Positions 3,028 through 14,722 of a stretch of DNA of 21,341 bases are shown here, one piece after another. The position numbers were made by a program, and so were the translations under genes. This DNA comes from a virus. Below the pieces are notes generated by a model that did not search any database, was not told the DNA's origin, and was given only the letters and a program-made list of their open reading frames with translations. How positions within the stretch are numbered: position 1 is the first letter of the stretch; each line of letters opens with the position of its first letter. The DNA is taken from positions 1 through 21,341 of IMG/VR virus record IMGVR_UViG_3300037070_006320; one strand, written 5' to 3'.

Positions 3028-3306
3028 ATGGAAGAAAGCACAACCAAAAAAACAGAGCCAACAAAAGAGGAACAAAAACCTAAACAGGTCGCGATTCCAA
3101 CACAAAAAACATTTTCCTTCAATACGCTTTTCAATAGCCCTGAAAAGATTGATCAGAAAATAAATAAATGGCTGAAAGATCAGACCATGAAAAAACAAAC
3201 CCCGATGCTTGGGAAGGTTTCCACAACCACAGGCTTATTCGGCAAGCAAATTGTTTATGTTTTTATGTTCAGTACTGTTTTTGAAATTCAATTGAAAAAA
3301 GCGTGA
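3028..3306 (+). CDS. Small protein at the head of the glycan operon, unknown
   Basis: A 92-residue protein with a Lys/Glu/Thr-rich, probably disordered N-terminus (about 1-28). After that come FSFNTLFNSPEKIDQKINKWL and a hydrophobic C-terminal third (IVYVFMFSTVFEIQL, about 75-89), which could be a buried strand or a marginal membrane segment. The start is ATG 3028 directly behind the TACATTTG element. The 3' end overlaps the first glycosyltransferase by 4 nt (GTGA). I do not recognise a family; the position suggests an accessory protein of the glycan genes or a leftover of the phage core. Confidence 0.7.
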   Translation: MEESTTKKTEPTKEEQKPKQVAIPTQKTFSFNTLFNSPEKIDQKINKWLKDQTMKKQTPMLGKVSTTTGLFGKQIVYVFMFSTVFEIQLKKA

Positions 3307-4016
3307 AAAATATTCCAATCATCATCCCGGTATTTAATCAACTCACTTACCTGCAGAATTTAATTAACTGGTGGAAGTGGTACTATCCAGAAAACCCGAT
3401 TTTCATTGTTGACAACAGATCAACATACGCGCCGCTTCTGGAGTTTTACAAAGACGTAAAAGTTGAAGTTCACATTTACCCTGAAAACAAATTCATTCCA
3501 AACATGACCGATTTCATCAAAAGGTTCATCAATGGAAAATATGAATTTTATGTGATTTCAGATCCTGACATCATGCCACATCCAGCAACACCACCGAATT
3601 TTCTTGAAATCTGGAAGAACTACATTGAAACACACAAGTTTCACCGTGTTGGGTTCAACCTGATAACAAAAGATTTGCCGCTATTCCTGAATGAGCGTGA
3701 AATGATCATCGGAAATGAATCCGAATTGCTAAGAGGAAAAGAGGCTGTTGCCTTTGGTGGTTTCACTGGTTACAAGGCCCCAATTGATACAACCTTCTGC
3801 CTTTATTCTACAAAGAACGGCGGCTGGAGTGCCCCGATGAACGGAAAAGATTGGGGGAACTGCTTGAGATTATTTGAAGCGTTTCATTTGGGCTGGTACA
3901 TTGATGGGGATCACCTGAATGATGAAATGAAGTTCTACTTCGAAACATCAAAATACAGAATTCCCGGTCAGCCTTCTGCAGGGAGTAACAACAACAGACC
4001 AAAGCAATTCCAATAA
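3303..4016 (+). CDS. GT-A fold glycosyltransferase (family 2-like)
   Basis: A 237-residue soluble enzyme beginning at GTG 3303. The N-terminus [14 protein letters not shown] and the following IFIVDNRST (about 33-41) form the nucleotide-binding Rossmann half of a GT-A fold. VISDPDIMP (about 84-92) carries the DxD-type metal and sugar-nucleotide motif, DPD at 87-89. This should transfer a sugar from a nucleotide-sugar donor to a glycan or protein in the cytoplasm; donor and acceptor cannot be read from sequence. Its short length and lack of membrane helices fit phage-borne transferases. It is the first enzyme of a tightly overlapping series of nine. Confidence 0.82.
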
Positions 4017-4537
4017 TGGCAGGTAAGGTCAATATGGGTTACAGAAGTTATTCGAATGGCGCGCCGATCACAAGGGGTGACATTTCAGATCTTCACATTG
4101 GTAAATTCTGCTGCATTGCTCAGAATGTTGTTTTTGATCTTGGGTTTCACCATGAAACCGAATTTGTGACAACATACCCCTTGAACGTAATGTTCAACCA
4201 ATTAAAACACATCACAGGGCACCCAAAATCAAAAGGTGACATCACAATTGGAAGTGATGTTTGGATTGGTGAAGGCTCAATCATAATGGGAGGCATCACA
4301 ATAGGACACGGCGCTGTAATTGCAGCCGGTGCAGTTGTGACAAAAGACGTTGAACCTTATGAAATTGTTGGAGGTGTTCCAGCAAAAGCAATCAAGAAAA
4401 GATTCAATCACTTTCAGGTTGTTGACCTTTTAAAAATTTCTTGGTGGGATTGGTCGGATGCAAAAATTGTAGAAAACGCCGAATTACTCATGGGAAAAGA
4501 CATTCAAAAATTTATAGACAAACATAAACATGACTGA
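4016..4537 (+). CDS. Hexapeptide-repeat acetyltransferase (CatB/Vat-like)
   Basis: A 173-residue left-handed beta-helix acyltransferase. Hexapeptide turns are clear from about residue 78 to 125 ([18 protein letters not shown], then [15 protein letters not shown] and [14 protein letters not shown]). The early [12 protein letters not shown] and FHH...TTYP region (about 29-60) resembles the CatB/VatD branch, where a His in that loop is catalytic. In a glycan operon the acceptor is more likely a sugar hydroxyl or amino group than an antibiotic, so O- or N-acetylation of the product glycan is inferred. The C-terminal helix ([13 protein letters not shown]) is typical of the family. TAATG overlap with the upstream enzyme. 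Confidence 0.88.
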
Positions 4538-5108
4538 AAAAAAATCACATCAGGTCTTCTTTGAACTTGAAGACGCGCTTATTCACGATGCACACACTGG
4601 TTTTCGTGAAGATTACCAAGTAATCCACAGCCTTCTGAGAATGCACAAACCAAAATCTATTTTCGAAATAGGCACCAACATTGGCAGCGGAATTAACGTC
4701 ATGGCAAGGGCCCTGCCTGAAGCGAAAATTTTCAGCCTTGATTTGGATTACGAAACCATGAAGCTGAACAGTAAACAATATCCTATTGGTCCACAAGGAC
4801 AAGATCGGGTTGGTTCTGCTGCAAAGGTACCTTATACGCAATTGAGGGGTGACAGCTTAACTTTTGATTATTCAGCGCATCCATGCGAGGCTTATTTTTG
4901 TGACGGTGAACACGATGAACATCACCCGTACATTGAAACGCTTGGAATGCTTTCACAGCTGCCTGAACTTATCATTTACCATGATGCTGACATCAAAGAG
5001 GTATATTCTGGAATCACAAAGGCATTTGCAGAACACGAAAACGGAAAAAAATACAACCTTGTAAGGGTAATTGACACCCGTATTTTATACGCTCTAAAAA
5101 AGAAATAA
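4530..5108 (+). CDS. Class I SAM-dependent methyltransferase
   Basis: A 192-residue enzyme with SAM-binding motif [13 protein letters not shown] at about 43-54, an acidic strand-2 end (IFSLDLDYE, about 71-79), a motif-II/III area ending in [13 protein letters not shown], and IIYHDADI in the fourth strand. It looks like the Methyltransf_24 group, many of which act on sugars or small metabolites in surface-polysaccharide clusters. Here it probably methylates a sugar of the glycan built by the neighbouring transferases. DNA methyltransferase motifs such as DPPY or PCQ are absent. It overlaps neighbours by 8 nt upstream and 1 nt downstream. Confidence 0.82.
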
Positions 5109-5803
5109 TGCTGGCAGTTGTTGTAATTACTTACAATGTTTCTTCTTTGCTTAGAAAGCAGGTTGAACTTATAAAAAGGTTTTGCAAAGATCCTTTTGAA
5201 ATCATCATCATTGATAACAGCAGTTTTGCGCATGAAGCTAAGTCAATAAAGTACCATGCAGAATTGACCGGCTGCAAGTACATCAAAACACTATCTTCAG
5301 CGCAATTCGGGAGTGAATCCCATGCCTTTGCCGCAAACCTAAGTTACAACCTTCTTTACAAAAAATATGATCAAATGCTTTATTTAGATCATGACTGCTT
5401 CCCGTTGAAGAACTTTTCAGTGAAGGCAACAATAAAAGGAAAGTGTTTGGGTGGAATCGCTCAAGAAAAAACAAAGACATACTTCTGGCCCGGGTGCCTT
5501 ATGATCAATAACACCATGATTCTTCCCGGAATGGTTGACTTTTCAACTTCACCCGGACTTGATACCGGCGGCGGTCTTCACAAAGTCATTGAGAGGTACG
5601 GAATAGGAAATTGCGCTGTGTTCGATGAAGTACACGTTCAGAATCCCGGGTTCAGCAAATCATTCTACAATTTTTATTCTTCAATAAACAACGGCCAGTT
5701 CATGCATTTTATAAATGGTTCAAACTGGAACCAGAGCGCCGAAAATGAAGAACGCCTTAATTCTCTTTTAAACGTACTTGAAACACTTACAAAAGAAGAC
5801 TGA
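5108..5803 (+). CDS. Glycosyltransferase, GT-A fold
   Basis: A 231-residue protein. LAVVVITYNVSSLL and IIIIDNSS (about 2-15, 32-39) form the nucleotide-binding half, and YLDHDCFPL (about 92-100) carries a DxD-type motif (DHD, 94-96). The later part is rich in aromatic residues and Gly (TYFWPGCLMINNTM, GLDTGGGLHKVIERYG), as in acceptor-binding loops. The DxD motif points to a metal-dependent transferase, but the family is not clear enough to name. It starts one base inside the methyltransferase stop (TAATG) and ends one base into the next transferase, consistent with one transcript and coupled translation. Confidence 0.75.
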   Translation: MLAVVVITYNVSSLLRKQVELIKRFCKDPFEIIIIDNSSFAHEAKSIKYHAELTGCKYIKTLSSAQFGSESHAFAANLSYNLLYKKYDQMLYLDHDCFPLKNFSVKATIKGKCLGGIAQEKTKTYFWPGCLMINNTMILPGMVDFSTSPGLDTGGGLHKVIERYGIGNCAVFDEVHVQNPGFSKSFYNFYSSINNGQFMHFINGSNWNQSAENEERLNSLLNVLETLTKED

Positions 5804-6441
5804 TGCCAAAGTGTGCAGTAATTTTTTACCACAAAAACATAAATAACCTTTACCGCCCGGAATGGATTCAGCTTTGTGTTGATTCAATAAAGAACCAGAC
5901 GTTCAAAGACTTTGATGTTTTTGAATTGTGTTATGGTGGGCTTGCGGCAAAGTATTGTGAAGGAATCAGTCCAAGATATTATTTCCTTGAAACTCAGTTT
6001 GAAAATCACATCGGGGCGATGAACTTTTGTTATGACCTGATTTTTAATGCTGGTTATGATGTTGTGTTCAATACAAACATGGATGATTTTTATTCTGCAG
6101 GTAGATTTGAAAAGCAACTTGATGCAATCGAAAAAGGGGCCCAACTTGTAAGTTCAAACTTCAGGTACTTCAACAACGGTGCATATATCAAGGATCTGAT
6201 TTTCCACAACAGAAGCATTTCAAAGGAATTAATGAGGGGACACAACATAATTGCACACCCTGTAATTGCAATGCACCGTTCATTCTGGGATGGACTGAGA
6301 TATAAAGATTCACTTGGGAATGAAGATCTTCTTTTGTGGAAAGAGGCCGTGACAAAAGGCAAAAAAATTGTAATATTGCCTGACTTCTTACTTTCTTACA
6401 GGCTGCACCAAAACCAAGTAACAAAAAAATATCGAAGATGA
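5803..6441 (+). CDS. Glycosyltransferase family 2-like
   Basis: A 212-residue enzyme. The order AVIFYHKN, then WIQLCVDSIKNQTFKDFDVFE, then IGAMNFCYDLIF, then VVFNTNMDDFY follows GT2 enzymes, with the metal motif NMDD at about 92-95. It is followed by SGxF-like AGRFEKQLD and by GNEDLLLWKEA, the usual ED acidic motif of the catalytic base region. The substrate cannot be inferred. The glycosyltransferases of this run differ strongly from one another in sequence, so they are not recent tandem copies and likely add different sugars. Overlap of 4 nt with the GT6 gene. Confidence 0.82.
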   Translation: MPKCAVIFYHKNINNLYRPEWIQLCVDSIKNQTFKDFDVFELCYGGLAAKYCEGISPRYYFLETQFENHIGAMNFCYDLIFNAGYDVVFNTNMDDFYSAGRFEKQLDAIEKGAQLVSSNFRYFNNGAYIKDLIFHNRSISKELMRGHNIIAHPVIAMHRSFWDGLRYKDSLGNEDLLLWKEAVTKGKKIVILPDFLLSYRLHQNQVTKKYRR

Positions 6442-7133
6442 AAAAAGTTGCCCTTCTTTTAATTGCAACCGGAAAATATGATCGATTTTTGCCAGCGCTG
6501 CTTGAATCGGTGAATAAGTATTTCCTGAAAGACTGTGAAGTTAGTATTCATGTGTTTGCTGACAGGGCACAGCCTGAAGGATGTTTCATTCACAGGGTTG
6601 AACATCGCCCATTTCCTTACACAACCTTAATGAGGTATCATTTTTTCTATGACTATCAAGAAGAAATTGGTGGAAACGATTACTATTTTTATCTTGATGT
6701 TGACACGATCATAAAGGATCACATCACTTCTGAAATTCTCAGTGACAGGACAGCCGTTCAGCATTGCGGCTTTGTGAATCGTGAAGGGCCATTTGAAACG
6801 AATGAGAAATCACAATGTTTTGTCCCAAAAGAACAAAGAATGAACCCTTATTTCGGCGGTGGATTTTGGGGATTTTCTGATACTCAGTTTTGGATGTTTG
6901 TCAAGCAATCAATACACATGATCAATGAAGACCAGAAAAACAATATTTCACCGGTTTGGGATGATGAATCTGTGTTGAACAAATACCTGATGATGAAGGC
7001 ACCGACCAAAATTTTAAGCCCGTCTTACCACTATCCAGAAGGCAACATTCAAAGGTATAAAGCCATGTGGCCGGAAAATTACCCATGTAAAATATTGCTC
7101 ATAGACAAAAATCATAAAGAAGTAAGATCATGA
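6438..7133 (+). CDS. GT6 family glycosyltransferase (ABO blood-group transferase type)
   Basis: A 231-residue homologue of the catalytic domain of histo-blood-group A/B transferases and alpha-1,3-galactosyltransferases. Matching landmarks in family order are ATGKYDRFLPALLESVNKYF near the N-terminus, HVFADR (38-43), PYTTLMRYHFF (60-70), the metal site YLDVDTII with DVD at 87-89, the acceptor loop YFGGGFWGFSDTQFW (138-152), WDDESVLNKYLM (174-185) and PTKILSPSYHYPE (189-201). Family members are retaining enzymes that transfer Gal or GalNAc in alpha-1,3 linkage to Gal, often to Fuc-alpha-1,2-Gal. Most bacterial members are known to have NxN in place of DxD, so an intact DVD is notable. No membrane anchor is present. 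An alpha-1,2-fucosyltransferase gene follows directly with a 4-nt overlap. Confidence 0.9.
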   Translation: MKKVALLLIATGKYDRFLPALLESVNKYFLKDCEVSIHVFADRAQPEGCFIHRVEHRPFPYTTLMRYHFFYDYQEEIGGNDYYFYLDVDTIIKDHITSEILSDRTAVQHCGFVNREGPFETNEKSQCFVPKEQRMNPYFGGGFWGFSDTQFWMFVKQSIHMINEDQKNNISPVWDDESVLNKYLMMKAPTKILSPSYHYPEGNIQRYKAMWPENYPCKILLIDKNHKEVRS

Positions 7134-7906
7134 TCACAATCAAAAAATTTGGTATTGCAGAAGCTGGAGGCCGTTTAGGAAATGCATTATTTCAATTGAA
7201 TTCCTTGATCGGTGTTTCAGAAACAACCGGGCACCCTTATGTTTTGGCCGGCTGGAAATACGCCGATTATTTCAACCTGAATATAAAATTCGGGTCCATG
7301 CCCGGAAATTGTATTTCGCTGAAGGAATCATCATTCCATTTTGACATGACCCAATTCGACGGGCTCAAGCAGGGCAAGAACTATGACTTCACCGGGTACC
7401 TTCAAAGTGAAAAGTACTTCGGCCAGCAAAGAATCAAATTCAAATCACCACCCCAACACCTTGTAAACCTTTATCTGAAGTACTTCGGTGGATCCGAAGA
7501 ACAAACTGTTGCCATTCATGTAAGGCGCGGTGATTACGTTGATAACCCGTATTACTATCAACTGCCTTACATTTACTACTTCAAAGCCCTTGAAAACAAG
7601 ATCCCGGAAATGCACAAAAAACGGATTTTGATTTTCTCTGATGATATTGAATATTGCAGGGAGGTGTTCCCAAAGACTTCAAATTTTGTATTCATCGCCG
7701 GAAATACGGAAATCGAAGATCTTTATCTTATGGCTCAGTGTGACTATCACATTCTTTCAAATTCAACCTTCAGCTGGTGGGGTGCTTACCTGTCAGCAAG
7801 CAGGAAAGTGATTTATCCGGCCCAATATTTTGCCGGTTCCGGGCTGAAAAATGACACAAAAGATTTCTGGCCTGACCGCTGGCACAAATTTGATCACAAT
7901 GAGTAA
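7130..7906 (+). CDS. GT11 alpha-1,2-fucosyltransferase
   Basis: A 258-residue enzyme with all main GT11 signatures: GGRLGNALFQL at about 13-23 (family GGxGNxLFQ), HVRRGDYVDNP at 130-140 (the donor-binding HxRRxDY motif), LIFSDDIEYCR near 168-178, and the C-terminal block DYHILSNSTFSWWGAYLS. GT11 enzymes transfer L-fucose from GDP-fucose in alpha-1,2 linkage, usually to terminal galactose, making H-antigen type ends. No GDP-fucose synthesis genes are in the window, so the host pool would be used. The sequence is of normal length with no missing motif. It sits directly after the GT6 gene, and the two could act in succession. Confidence 0.93.
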   Translation: MITIKKFGIAEAGGRLGNALFQLNSLIGVSETTGHPYVLAGWKYADYFNLNIKFGSMPGNCISLKESSFHFDMTQFDGLKQGKNYDFTGYLQSEKYFGQQRIKFKSPPQHLVNLYLKYFGGSEEQTVAIHVRRGDYVDNPYYYQLPYIYYFKALENKIPEMHKKRILIFSDDIEYCREVFPKTSNFVFIAGNTEIEDLYLMAQCDYHILSNSTFSWWGAYLSASRKVIYPAQYFAGSGLKNDTKDFWPDRWHKFDHNE

Positions 7907-8588
7907 AGTCAGCATCATAATCCCTTGCTACAATCAGGGGCATTTCCTGCATGAGGCCATAAAAAGCGCTCTGGACCAAACACATCAAGAAGTTGAAGTT
8001 GTTGTTGTGAATGATGGGTCCACCGACCAAACCGCCCGGGTAATTCAGCACTTTGAACAAAGAAAGTCTTCAGGACACGCCGAATTTGTGTCAATCACCC
8101 AAGAAAACAGGGGATTAAGTGCTGCCAGAAATGCAGGAATTTCGAAATCATCCGGTGAATTTATTGTTTGCCTTGATGCCGATGATCGCCTTTCACCTGC
8201 CTACATCGAAAAAACAGTCAAGTTTCTTGAAGATTATGACATTGTGGGCACTGGAACACAGGAATTCGGCAACAAGTTCAGGCGCTGGAAAACACCCCTT
8301 GTTGAAGTCAGGTATAAGGAACTGCTGATAAAGAACCGGTTGAATTATGCTTCCATTTACAAAAAAAAGCTTTGGACCGATGTCGGGGGGTATGATGAAG
8401 GAATGAAAATCGGCTTTGAAGACTTCATGTTCTGGCTTGACTGTTCCCTTTCAGGTGCTAAAATTATGGTCTTGAATGAATTCCTATTTTACTACAGGAA
8501 ACACGAAAAATCAATGTTCAGCGATGCCTTGCAACGCCGGGCCGAAATCATAAAATACATGAACGCCAAACACCCAATGACAACATGA
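7899..8588 (+). CDS. Glycosyltransferase family 2
   Basis: A 229-residue classic GT2 enzyme: SIIIPCYNQGHFLHEAI at the N-terminus, VVVVNDGSTDQT (about 35-45), ITQENRGLSAARNAGI (about 66-81) and FIVCLDADDRLSP with the DxD at 93-95. Then IGFEDFMFWLDCSLSG holds the catalytic acidic pair. I place the start at ATG 7899, 8 nt inside the fucosyltransferase end, because the canonical GT2 N-terminus begins there; an in-frame ATG 48 bases upstream would add residues with no family match. It likely adds one sugar to a cytoplasmic acceptor; donor unknown. Confidence 0.92.
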   Translation: MSKVSIIIPCYNQGHFLHEAIKSALDQTHQEVEVVVVNDGSTDQTARVIQHFEQRKSSGHAEFVSITQENRGLSAARNAGISKSSGEFIVCLDADDRLSPAYIEKTVKFLEDYDIVGTGTQEFGNKFRRWKTPLVEVRYKELLIKNRLNYASIYKKKLWTDVGGYDEGMKIGFEDFMFWLDCSLSGAKIMVLNEFLFYYRKHEKSMFSDALQRRAEIIKYMNAKHPMTT

Positions 8589-8743
8589 TGAAAATTTATA
8601 CTACAGACGGCCAATTTTTGCCTTTTCAAACATTTTTTGCATGGGTGAAGCAAAAATTCTGCAAACACAATTACATCAAAATGGGGAATGTTTCTTCATG
8701 TACAAATTGCTTAAAAACAGTTTCAGATGGAAGAACCAGTTGA
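8585..8743 (+). CDS. 52-residue zinc-ribbon-like small protein
   Basis: A short frame starting at ATG 8585 in an ATGA overlap with the GT2 gene and ending at TGA 8741-8743, 16 nt inside the next gene (ATG 8727). The protein has FCKHNY (Cys26, His28) and SSCTNCLK (Cys39, Cys42), spaced as in small zinc ribbons that fold around C-x-H and C-x2-C. An N-terminal helix (PFQTFFAWVKQKFC) precedes it. It fills what would otherwise be a 138-nt gap in a region with no gaps, and it has overlaps on both sides, so translation is likely. Function unknown. Confidence 0.7.
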   Translation: MMKIYTTDGQFLPFQTFFAWVKQKFCKHNYIKMGNVSSCTNCLKTVSDGRTS

Positions 8744-9449
8744 TGTTGTTTACCTTCTAAGTAAGGGGTCCCAATGGCAGGACAATGAAATCCGGTATTC
8801 TTTAAGGTCGCTGGAAAAGCACCTGAAAAACTACAGGAACGTGTATATTGTCGGGTACCGCCCCCCATTTTTAAACGACAAGGCCATAGAAATACCGTTT
8901 AAGGACTTTTATTCCAACCGTTCACGGAATATCATGGCAAAGATTCACCGCGCCGCAAGTGATACCAGAGTGACCCAAAAGTTCATTTTATTCAATGATG
9001 ATTATTTCCTGCTGCAGGATGTCGAAGCGCCGGAATATCCCTATTATTTCAACAACAGCCTTGAAATCACAGCGGCAAGACAGTACAATTCCTATAAAAA
9101 GTATGTTGATGCAACTTTGAAGATCCTGAAGGAAAACAACCTGCCAACGGTACACTTTGATCTTCATTGCCCTATCATTTACGATAAATTCAAGTTTAAG
9201 AAAATGGTGGATCACTACAACTGGAACATTCCACACGGCTACATTGTGAAATCTATGTATTGCAATCATTTCGGAATTACCGGAGTTCAAAGGGAAGATC
9301 ACAAAATCAACTATCCTTACCGGGCGAATATGTTAGATGATATGAACTACAACAAAGAAATGTTTTCAATCAGTGACAAGGCCCTGACCCATTCGATGAA
9401 GGCCTACATCATGAAGAAATACCCAGAAAAATCAACTTTCGAAATATGA
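8727..9449 (+). CDS. Stealth-like sugar-phosphate transferase
   Basis: A 240-residue protein resembling the conserved core of Stealth proteins (hexose-1-phosphate transferases such as capsule phosphotransferases). VDVVYLLSKGSQWQDNEIRY with SLRSLEKHLKNYRNVYIVG (about 5-43) matches the CR1/CR2 start, RNIMAKIHRAA (68-78) matches the middle, and KFILFNDDYFLL (85-96) contains the NDD active-site motif. A later HFDLHCPIIYDK fits the downstream conserved His block. It is shorter than typical bacterial members (300 or more residues), a minimal form. The family transfers a sugar-phosphate in capsular polymers, so here it could cap or decorate a surface glycan. It closes the glycan series. Confidence 0.78.
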   Translation: MEEPVDVVYLLSKGSQWQDNEIRYSLRSLEKHLKNYRNVYIVGYRPPFLNDKAIEIPFKDFYSNRSRNIMAKIHRAASDTRVTQKFILFNDDYFLLQDVEAPEYPYYFNNSLEITAARQYNSYKKYVDATLKILKENNLPTVHFDLHCPIIYDKFKFKKMVDHYNWNIPHGYIVKSMYCNHFGITGVQREDHKINYPYRANMLDDMNYNKEMFSISDKALTHSMKAYIMKKYPEKSTFEI

Positions 9450-14591: not shown

Positions 14592-14722
14592 GTAGCGATG
14601 GCGGAATGGTAAACGCTATGTGGGAACAGATGGTATTAGTCGATTAACCGGAGCTGTTGGCAGAAGCAGCACCACAGAGGCAGAAGTACAATGTCTTGAG
14701 GGTTCGAGTCCCTCTCGCTACA
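14592..14722 (+). tRNA. tRNA-like gene, class II type, with oversized anticodon region
   Basis: Acceptor strands GTAGCGA (14592-14598) and TCGCTAC (14715-14721) pair perfectly. After TG comes a D arm GCG-GAATGGTAAA-CGC with the invariant GG. The T arm is GAGGG-TTCGAGT-CCCTC (14698-14714). A variable arm AGGCA/TGTCT fits a class II (Leu- or Ser-like) tRNA. Between the D and T arms there are 82 nt, about 45-50 more than normal. TGTGG and CCACA can close the anticodon arm, but they leave 48 nt between them, so no anticodon can be read with confidence. Inside, GCTGTT/AGCAGC may form a further hairpin. CCA is not encoded. It may be an intron-bearing, decayed or repurposed tRNA. Confidence 0.6.

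Follow-up and report, generated by a model that had tools for sequence, protein, structure and literature searches.

Phage tRNA genes have, to our knowledge, gone for decades without an agreed function. Those described as countering host defences decode, and resist or replace a cleaved tRNA (PMC11555353, PMC10264068, PMC13096335). Other described RNAs and genes combine tRNA parts with further material: tmRNA (SsrA) joins a tRNA-like end to a pseudoknot-containing domain, the 3′-terminal tRNA-like structures of plant RNA viruses mimic tRNA with the help of pseudoknots, and in bacterial tRNA genes that harbour a group I intron the two halves are split by an insert near the anticodon. Here we compare these systems with a tRNA-like element located between two same-strand genes on the + strand of a 21,341-base IMG/VR virus record with phage head and packaging genes (the whole of this stretch is the window in what follows), and with a class of related elements from other viral contigs.

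With ordinary phage tRNA-Leu the class shares the acceptor, D and T arms, U8, A14, G18G19, A15:U48 and A73, but it lacks the anticodon stem-loop and has in its place a separately folding centre of about 20-230 nt. The defence-countering tRNAs are likewise phage-borne genes, sometimes near homing endonucleases, whereas class elements are without the decoding arm. Unlike tmRNA, the class keeps a full D arm, has a much shorter insert and no conserved tag frame, and Rfam tmRNA models match neither the window nor the class elements. The plant virus structures differ in that each class element is a stand-alone DNA phage gene with normal acceptor, D and T arms, in which the anticodon region has been replaced. 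Compared with the intron-bearing bacterial tRNAs, the class insert is far too short and the anticodon inconsistent, and a search of the window with the group I intron model RF00028 gave no match (E up to 1).

The initial annotation, made from the letters of the window, had placed a tRNA-like gene here, and its letters and limits were exact, giving a 131-nt span from 14592 to A73 at 14722 (Table 1). The acceptor stem, D arm and T arm are as it described them, and 48 nt do separate TGTGG from CCACA. Its hairpin GCTGTT/AGCAGC within that span is strongly predicted. The repeat it had noted is also present, with GGCAGAAG starting at 14659 and a second copy at 14679, although an 8-nt repeat of this kind may be due to chance (rough estimate ~4%). 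TGTGG/CCACA, the putative anticodon stem, is a weak prediction. The features that recur across the class are found here as well (7/7 acceptor pairing, U8, A14, G18G19, A15:U48 and a T loop of the form TTCRANY). CCA is not encoded, since the genome continues CACAA after A73.

Table 1. Parts of the tRNA-like element in window coordinates; pair probabilities were computed with the tRNA scaffold enforced.
Feature	Position	Strand	Basis or remark
Acceptor stem, 5′ strand, GTAGCGA	14592-14598	+	7/7 pairs with 14715-14721; compensatory change keeps the stem across the class
U8 and G9	14599-14600	+	U8 in 111/111 of the acceptor-blind set, among the matches listed
D arm, GCG-loop-CGC with A14, A15, G18G19	14601-14616	+	Sequence
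Central region, 81 nt, replacing anticodon arm and variable region	14617-14697	+	Sequence
Putative anticodon-stem-like helix, 5′ strand, TGTGG	14619-14623	+	Pairing probability 0.46-0.57, weak
Centre hairpin, GCTGTT-GGCAGA-AGCAGC	14653-14670	+	Pair probability 0.95-0.99
Putative anticodon-stem-like helix, 3′ strand, CCACA	14672-14676	+	Pairing probability 0.46-0.57, weak
Variable-arm-like hairpin, GAGGCA-GAAGTACAA-TGTCTT, immediately 5′ of the T stem	14677-14697	+	Pair probability 0.83-0.99
Loop GAAGTACAA, 9 nt	14683-14691	+	Recurs in hairpins of other phage tRNA-like genes
U48, final base of the central region, able to form the A15:U48 Levitt pair	14697	+	Sequence
T arm, GAGGG-TTCGAGT-CCCTC	14698-14714	+	Sequence; covariance-model match
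Acceptor stem, 3′ strand, TCGCTAC	14715-14721	+	Sequence; covariance-model match
Discriminator A73	14722	+	Sequence

The tRNA-like core of the window element is far beyond chance. A covariance-model test had been proposed in the initial annotation, and support was found: a scaffold model (R1) built from 37 other phage elements, with the window excluded, matched the element with a score of 65.5 bits (E=7e-15), compared with 9.6 bits for the runner-up in the window. Standard annotation tools miss class elements or assign them a doubtful anticodon; an Rfam scan of the window returned nothing relevant and passed over 14592-14722. BLAST of the element and of two families of related elements (families A and K) against sequenced phages gave short matches to tRNA ends and a few unannotated spots, among them spots in two crAss-like phages. 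No matching description of such elements was found in the open-access papers searched, and this group of phage tRNA mimics is apparently undescribed.

IMG/VR viral contigs were searched with two patterns, the first requiring a Leu-type D arm and a T arm separated by a 65-95 nt gap, with the acceptor ignored, and the second requiring an acceptor and D arm regardless of length; among the matches listed for the second, total element length ranged from 72 to 162 nt. The same scaffold is present in at least 120 contigs, most commonly as AGTCAGG-TGGCGGAATTGGTAGACGC-centre-ACAGGTTCGAATCCTGT-CCTGACT-A, with mostly unrelated central regions. Elements on non-Leu scaffolds also exist, and their share is underestimated because the pattern that retrieved the Leu-like ones was itself seeded on a Leu-like D arm. 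The contigs come from many independent metagenomes and are mostly metagenomic fragments. In several phages, two to four or more copies share one scaffold but differ in their centres. Some elements sit inside arrays of ordinary tRNAs, and an ordinary tRNA lies within 1.5 kb of 62 of 171 non-decoding elements. The elements are nearly restricted to phages and rare in bacterial genomes: seven contigs matched among 85,000 bacterial and archaeal species genomes, all seven from metagenome-derived or uncultured assemblies, and 3 of 395 Bacteroidota genomes matched, one through a contig that had already been found. No conserved protein partner was identified beside the elements; since the neighbouring genes are mixed and include a few terminase and HNH genes, neither a packaging RNA nor a homing element is supported as a general role. 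One contig with a tRNA-like element also carries a GOLLD RNA (L131:1477-1884, 298.8 bits), and a 183-kb phage has about 24 ARAGORN tRNA calls in an array together with at least five tRNA-like elements (L270:3646-10899).

Across the class, the core is a real tRNA fold. Among the matches listed for the acceptor-blind set, 91 of 111 elements form 7/7 acceptor pairs, using 41 acceptor sequences, compared with 4.8% in a control with swapped 3′ acceptor strands. Compensatory changes occur in the acceptor and T stems. A 37-member alignment holds 127 cells with a pair changed on both sides versus 26.5 in shuffles, its rows having been preselected for acceptor pairing, and the acceptor-blind set of 111 is the fair test. 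U48 is conserved in 94% of the class. Among 37 elements with other scaffolds, 34 have A:U or G:C as the Levitt pair 15:48, which was not a selection criterion. The common D arm is identical to that of ordinary tRNA-Leu genes in Chitinophagaceae MAGs, and the window D arm is of the same type.

Despite this core, the class elements do not decode. A canonical anticodon arm, defined as a 5-bp stem with a 7-nt loop and U33, is found in 2 of 155 non-redundant centres versus 0.8 expected from shuffling. Of these, one belongs to an ordinary tRNA-Leu and one represents a possible exception, the family of L125, L127, L184 and L270, for which the ARAGORN call is Glu(ctc). Within it, ARAGORN labels L127 2223-2316 tRNA-Glu, and L270 5271-5364 (Glu ctc) is either a tRNA-like element or a borderline case. 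In default mode, ARAGORN called none of 97 elements as a tRNA spanning the element. The window itself has no ARAGORN tRNA anywhere, and its would-be anticodon loop is 48 nt long and starts with GA. A 5-bp stem at the place of the anticodon stem occurs in a fraction of 0.32-0.37 of centres versus 0.30-0.33 of shuffled ones. The best-scoring pseudoknots had suggested a conserved anticodon-stem hairpin in the centres; because the position test shows no clear enrichment there, only the helix adjacent to the T stem and the pseudoknot of family A, both described below, were retained.

The centres are RNA domains rather than filler. Exactly 2 nt separate the T stem from the 3′ strand of a helix (≥6 bp) in 28% of centres versus 12% of shuffled ones, and this enrichment falls to background from offset 5. 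In the window, the helix adjoining the T stem is GAGGCA/TGTCTT, a local hairpin and not a pseudoknot. Family A comprises 28 distinct members, of which 22 were aligned, and in its centre AGGTTA/TAACCT crosses GATAAC/GTTATC to form a pseudoknot. Counted together with the scaffold, 99.7% of cells in this family are paired versus 27-43% when slid. The pseudoknot is supported by covariation, each crossing helix containing a pair changed on both sides, though most of the pairs in each are invariant. Homologous centres recur in unrelated flanking DNA, and centre modules recombine, because in the pairs L032/L064 and L056/L103 the centres (86-91% identity) are more alike than the scaffolds (only 78-82%). 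No motif is common to all centres. The centre of the window element is a singleton with no close relative in the data, its relatives being confined to the scaffold and the GAAGTACAA hairpin. The D loop of one family A member, L453, is enlarged by a hairpin-like insertion (GGGAGGGTGGTGTCCATCCTCGCG), and some centres (L038, L019, L182, L115, L046 and L112) have a second T-arm-like hairpin.

Hairpins with the loop GAAGTACAA recur in other phage tRNA-like genes, including ones with non-Leu scaffolds. In 31 of the 67 T-arm-linked copies of this loop the stem has 4 bp or more, and loci not selected for GAAGTACAA contain 5 such hairpins versus 0.5 for permuted loops. An apparently ordinary phage tRNA-Leu(CAA) near 14721-14809 of L243 has GAAGTACAA as the loop of its variable arm, and a short hairpin with the loop GGAAAGAC lies just 5′ of several tRNA-like genes of the GAAGTACAA type (L206, L263, L265, L287 and L298).

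We tentatively read the window element, at a little under even probability, as a phage-encoded, non-decoding tRNA mimic derived from tRNA-Leu and serving most likely as a bait for, or inhibitor of, tRNA-attacking defences or toxins. The 'tRNA mimic' proposed in the initial annotation gains support from the tRNA-like core and from an anticodon arm that is no commoner than chance. Such a mimic would retain the acceptor stem, D and T arms, elbow and A73, which tRNA-processing and tRNA-binding factors read, with a separate folded domain replacing the lost codon-reading arm. Its RNA would be transcribed, trimmed by RNase P and processed at the 3′ end, and then receive CCA; the mature RNA would engage a host factor recognising the tRNA elbow, 3′ end or variable arm and take no part in decoding. 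A mimic engaging tRNA-handling factors outside translation fits the retention of parts read in RNase P cleavage, 3′ processing and CCA addition and by EF-Tu, LeuRS and elbow-binding factors, together with the loss of parts read by the ribosome and mRNA. A bait or inhibitor is our first choice of purpose because defences described in the literature attack the variable loop (Septu; PMC13096335) or the 3′ tail (Cas12a3; PMC12851939) of tRNA, and because phage tRNAs can neutralise tRNA-cutting systems (PMC11555353, PMC10264068). The centre might give each family its own target or block entry into the ribosome; the variety of centres alone does not predict a decoy. The more specific suggestion of the initial annotation, a decoy against anticodon nucleases, is unlikely because the element has no anticodon loop to offer; it may instead be a decoy for enzymes reading the elbow, 3′ end or variable arm.

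The main rival, which we consider unlikely but the strongest of the alternatives, is a scaffolded regulatory or effector RNA, in which the tRNA-like half would provide processing and stability and the centre would be the working part, a riboregulator or a binder of ligands or proteins whose target differs from family to family. It would account for centre families whose sequence and structure persist between unrelated flanks, sometimes better conserved than the scaffold, for the family A pseudoknot, and for several copies per phage on one scaffold with unlike centres. It accords less well with the strictness with which acceptor, elbow and A73 are kept, which exceeds what simple stability needs, or with the lack of a common motif in the centres. 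A centre acting as an antisense guide to the same contig is likewise disfavoured: the longest complements to a centre in its own contig are no longer than those of shuffled centres, so that such matches do not rise above chance.

It is improbable that the element is an aminoacylated, non-decoding carrier, charged by LeuRS, with the leucine or charged RNA used outside translation or titrating EF-Tu or LeuRS. A73 and the A15:U48 Levitt pair are identity elements of bacterial tRNA-Leu, and bacterial LeuRS is not known to read the anticodon; the strong retention of these predicted identity elements and the match to the tRNA-Leu D arm of Chitinophagaceae MAGs point towards such a carrier. Against it stand the elements with non-Leu scaffolds, and we know of no phage process that needs one.

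We regard as very improbable the mini-intron offered among the options of the initial annotation, that is, a tRNA-Leu whose anticodon loop contains an insert that is spliced out, even though TGTGG/CCACA can flank the 48-nt stretch and ARAGORN in intron mode accepts most members. The anticodons so predicted are scattered, nearly one per member, where a tRNA with an intron would show one consistent anticodon common to homologues, and family A alone yields six (act, cat, tcc, tga, gaa and aag). Canonical anticodon arms are at chance level, the inserts are far smaller than group I introns, and some members have centres of just 20-24 nt, with nothing to splice and still no anticodon arm. The one-off slippage insertion also raised there fits poorly with homologous centres in phages with unrelated flanks. 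Least probable of all is a decaying tRNA pseudogene or assembly artefact, for which one could cite the absent ARAGORN call, the lack of a matching Rfam family and the location of some elements inside tRNA arrays. Compensatory changes, seen in both the acceptor and the T stem, contradict this reading, and the conservation of centre families across phages with unrelated flanks and the occurrence in many independent metagenomes count against it as well.

Taking the non-decoding mimic as the preferred reading, we put forward with slightly more reserve the wider proposal that the class is a large undescribed phage superfamily of anticodon-less mimics, combining the top half of a tRNA with interchangeable structured domains, spread from phage to phage as cassettes and forming a modular RNA arsenal against tRNA-handling host factors. 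Widespread mimics unable to decode would set what phage tRNAs do outside translation apart from their part in codon supply, and would make the anti-defence idea directly testable.

The host of the window phage is likely one of the Bacteroidota, because the window terminase resembles those of Flavobacterium phages. No close IMG/VR relatives of the upstream protein or the terminase were found, and one candidate syntenic relative (L024) was rejected, its apparent 33% identity being an alignment artefact. Elsewhere in the window, 3303-9449 is a glycan-modifying block with several glycosyltransferases (GT2, GT6 and GT11), a hexapeptide acetyltransferase, a weak O-methyltransferase match and a Stealth-like protein. 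Finally, an unannotated region in the crAss-like phages cr4_1 and cr6_1 (L196:2600-3030 and L197:2530-3030), to which Rfam tmRNA models give no match, has a tmRNA-like start, GGGGCATTATGGTTTTGACAGCG, and a frame ending DYTRLAA or DYTRIAA before the stop. An upstream ATGCTCCAC could pair with GGGGCAT, possibly as in a permuted tmRNA, and a tRNA-like element without a normal anticodon arm lies directly downstream.
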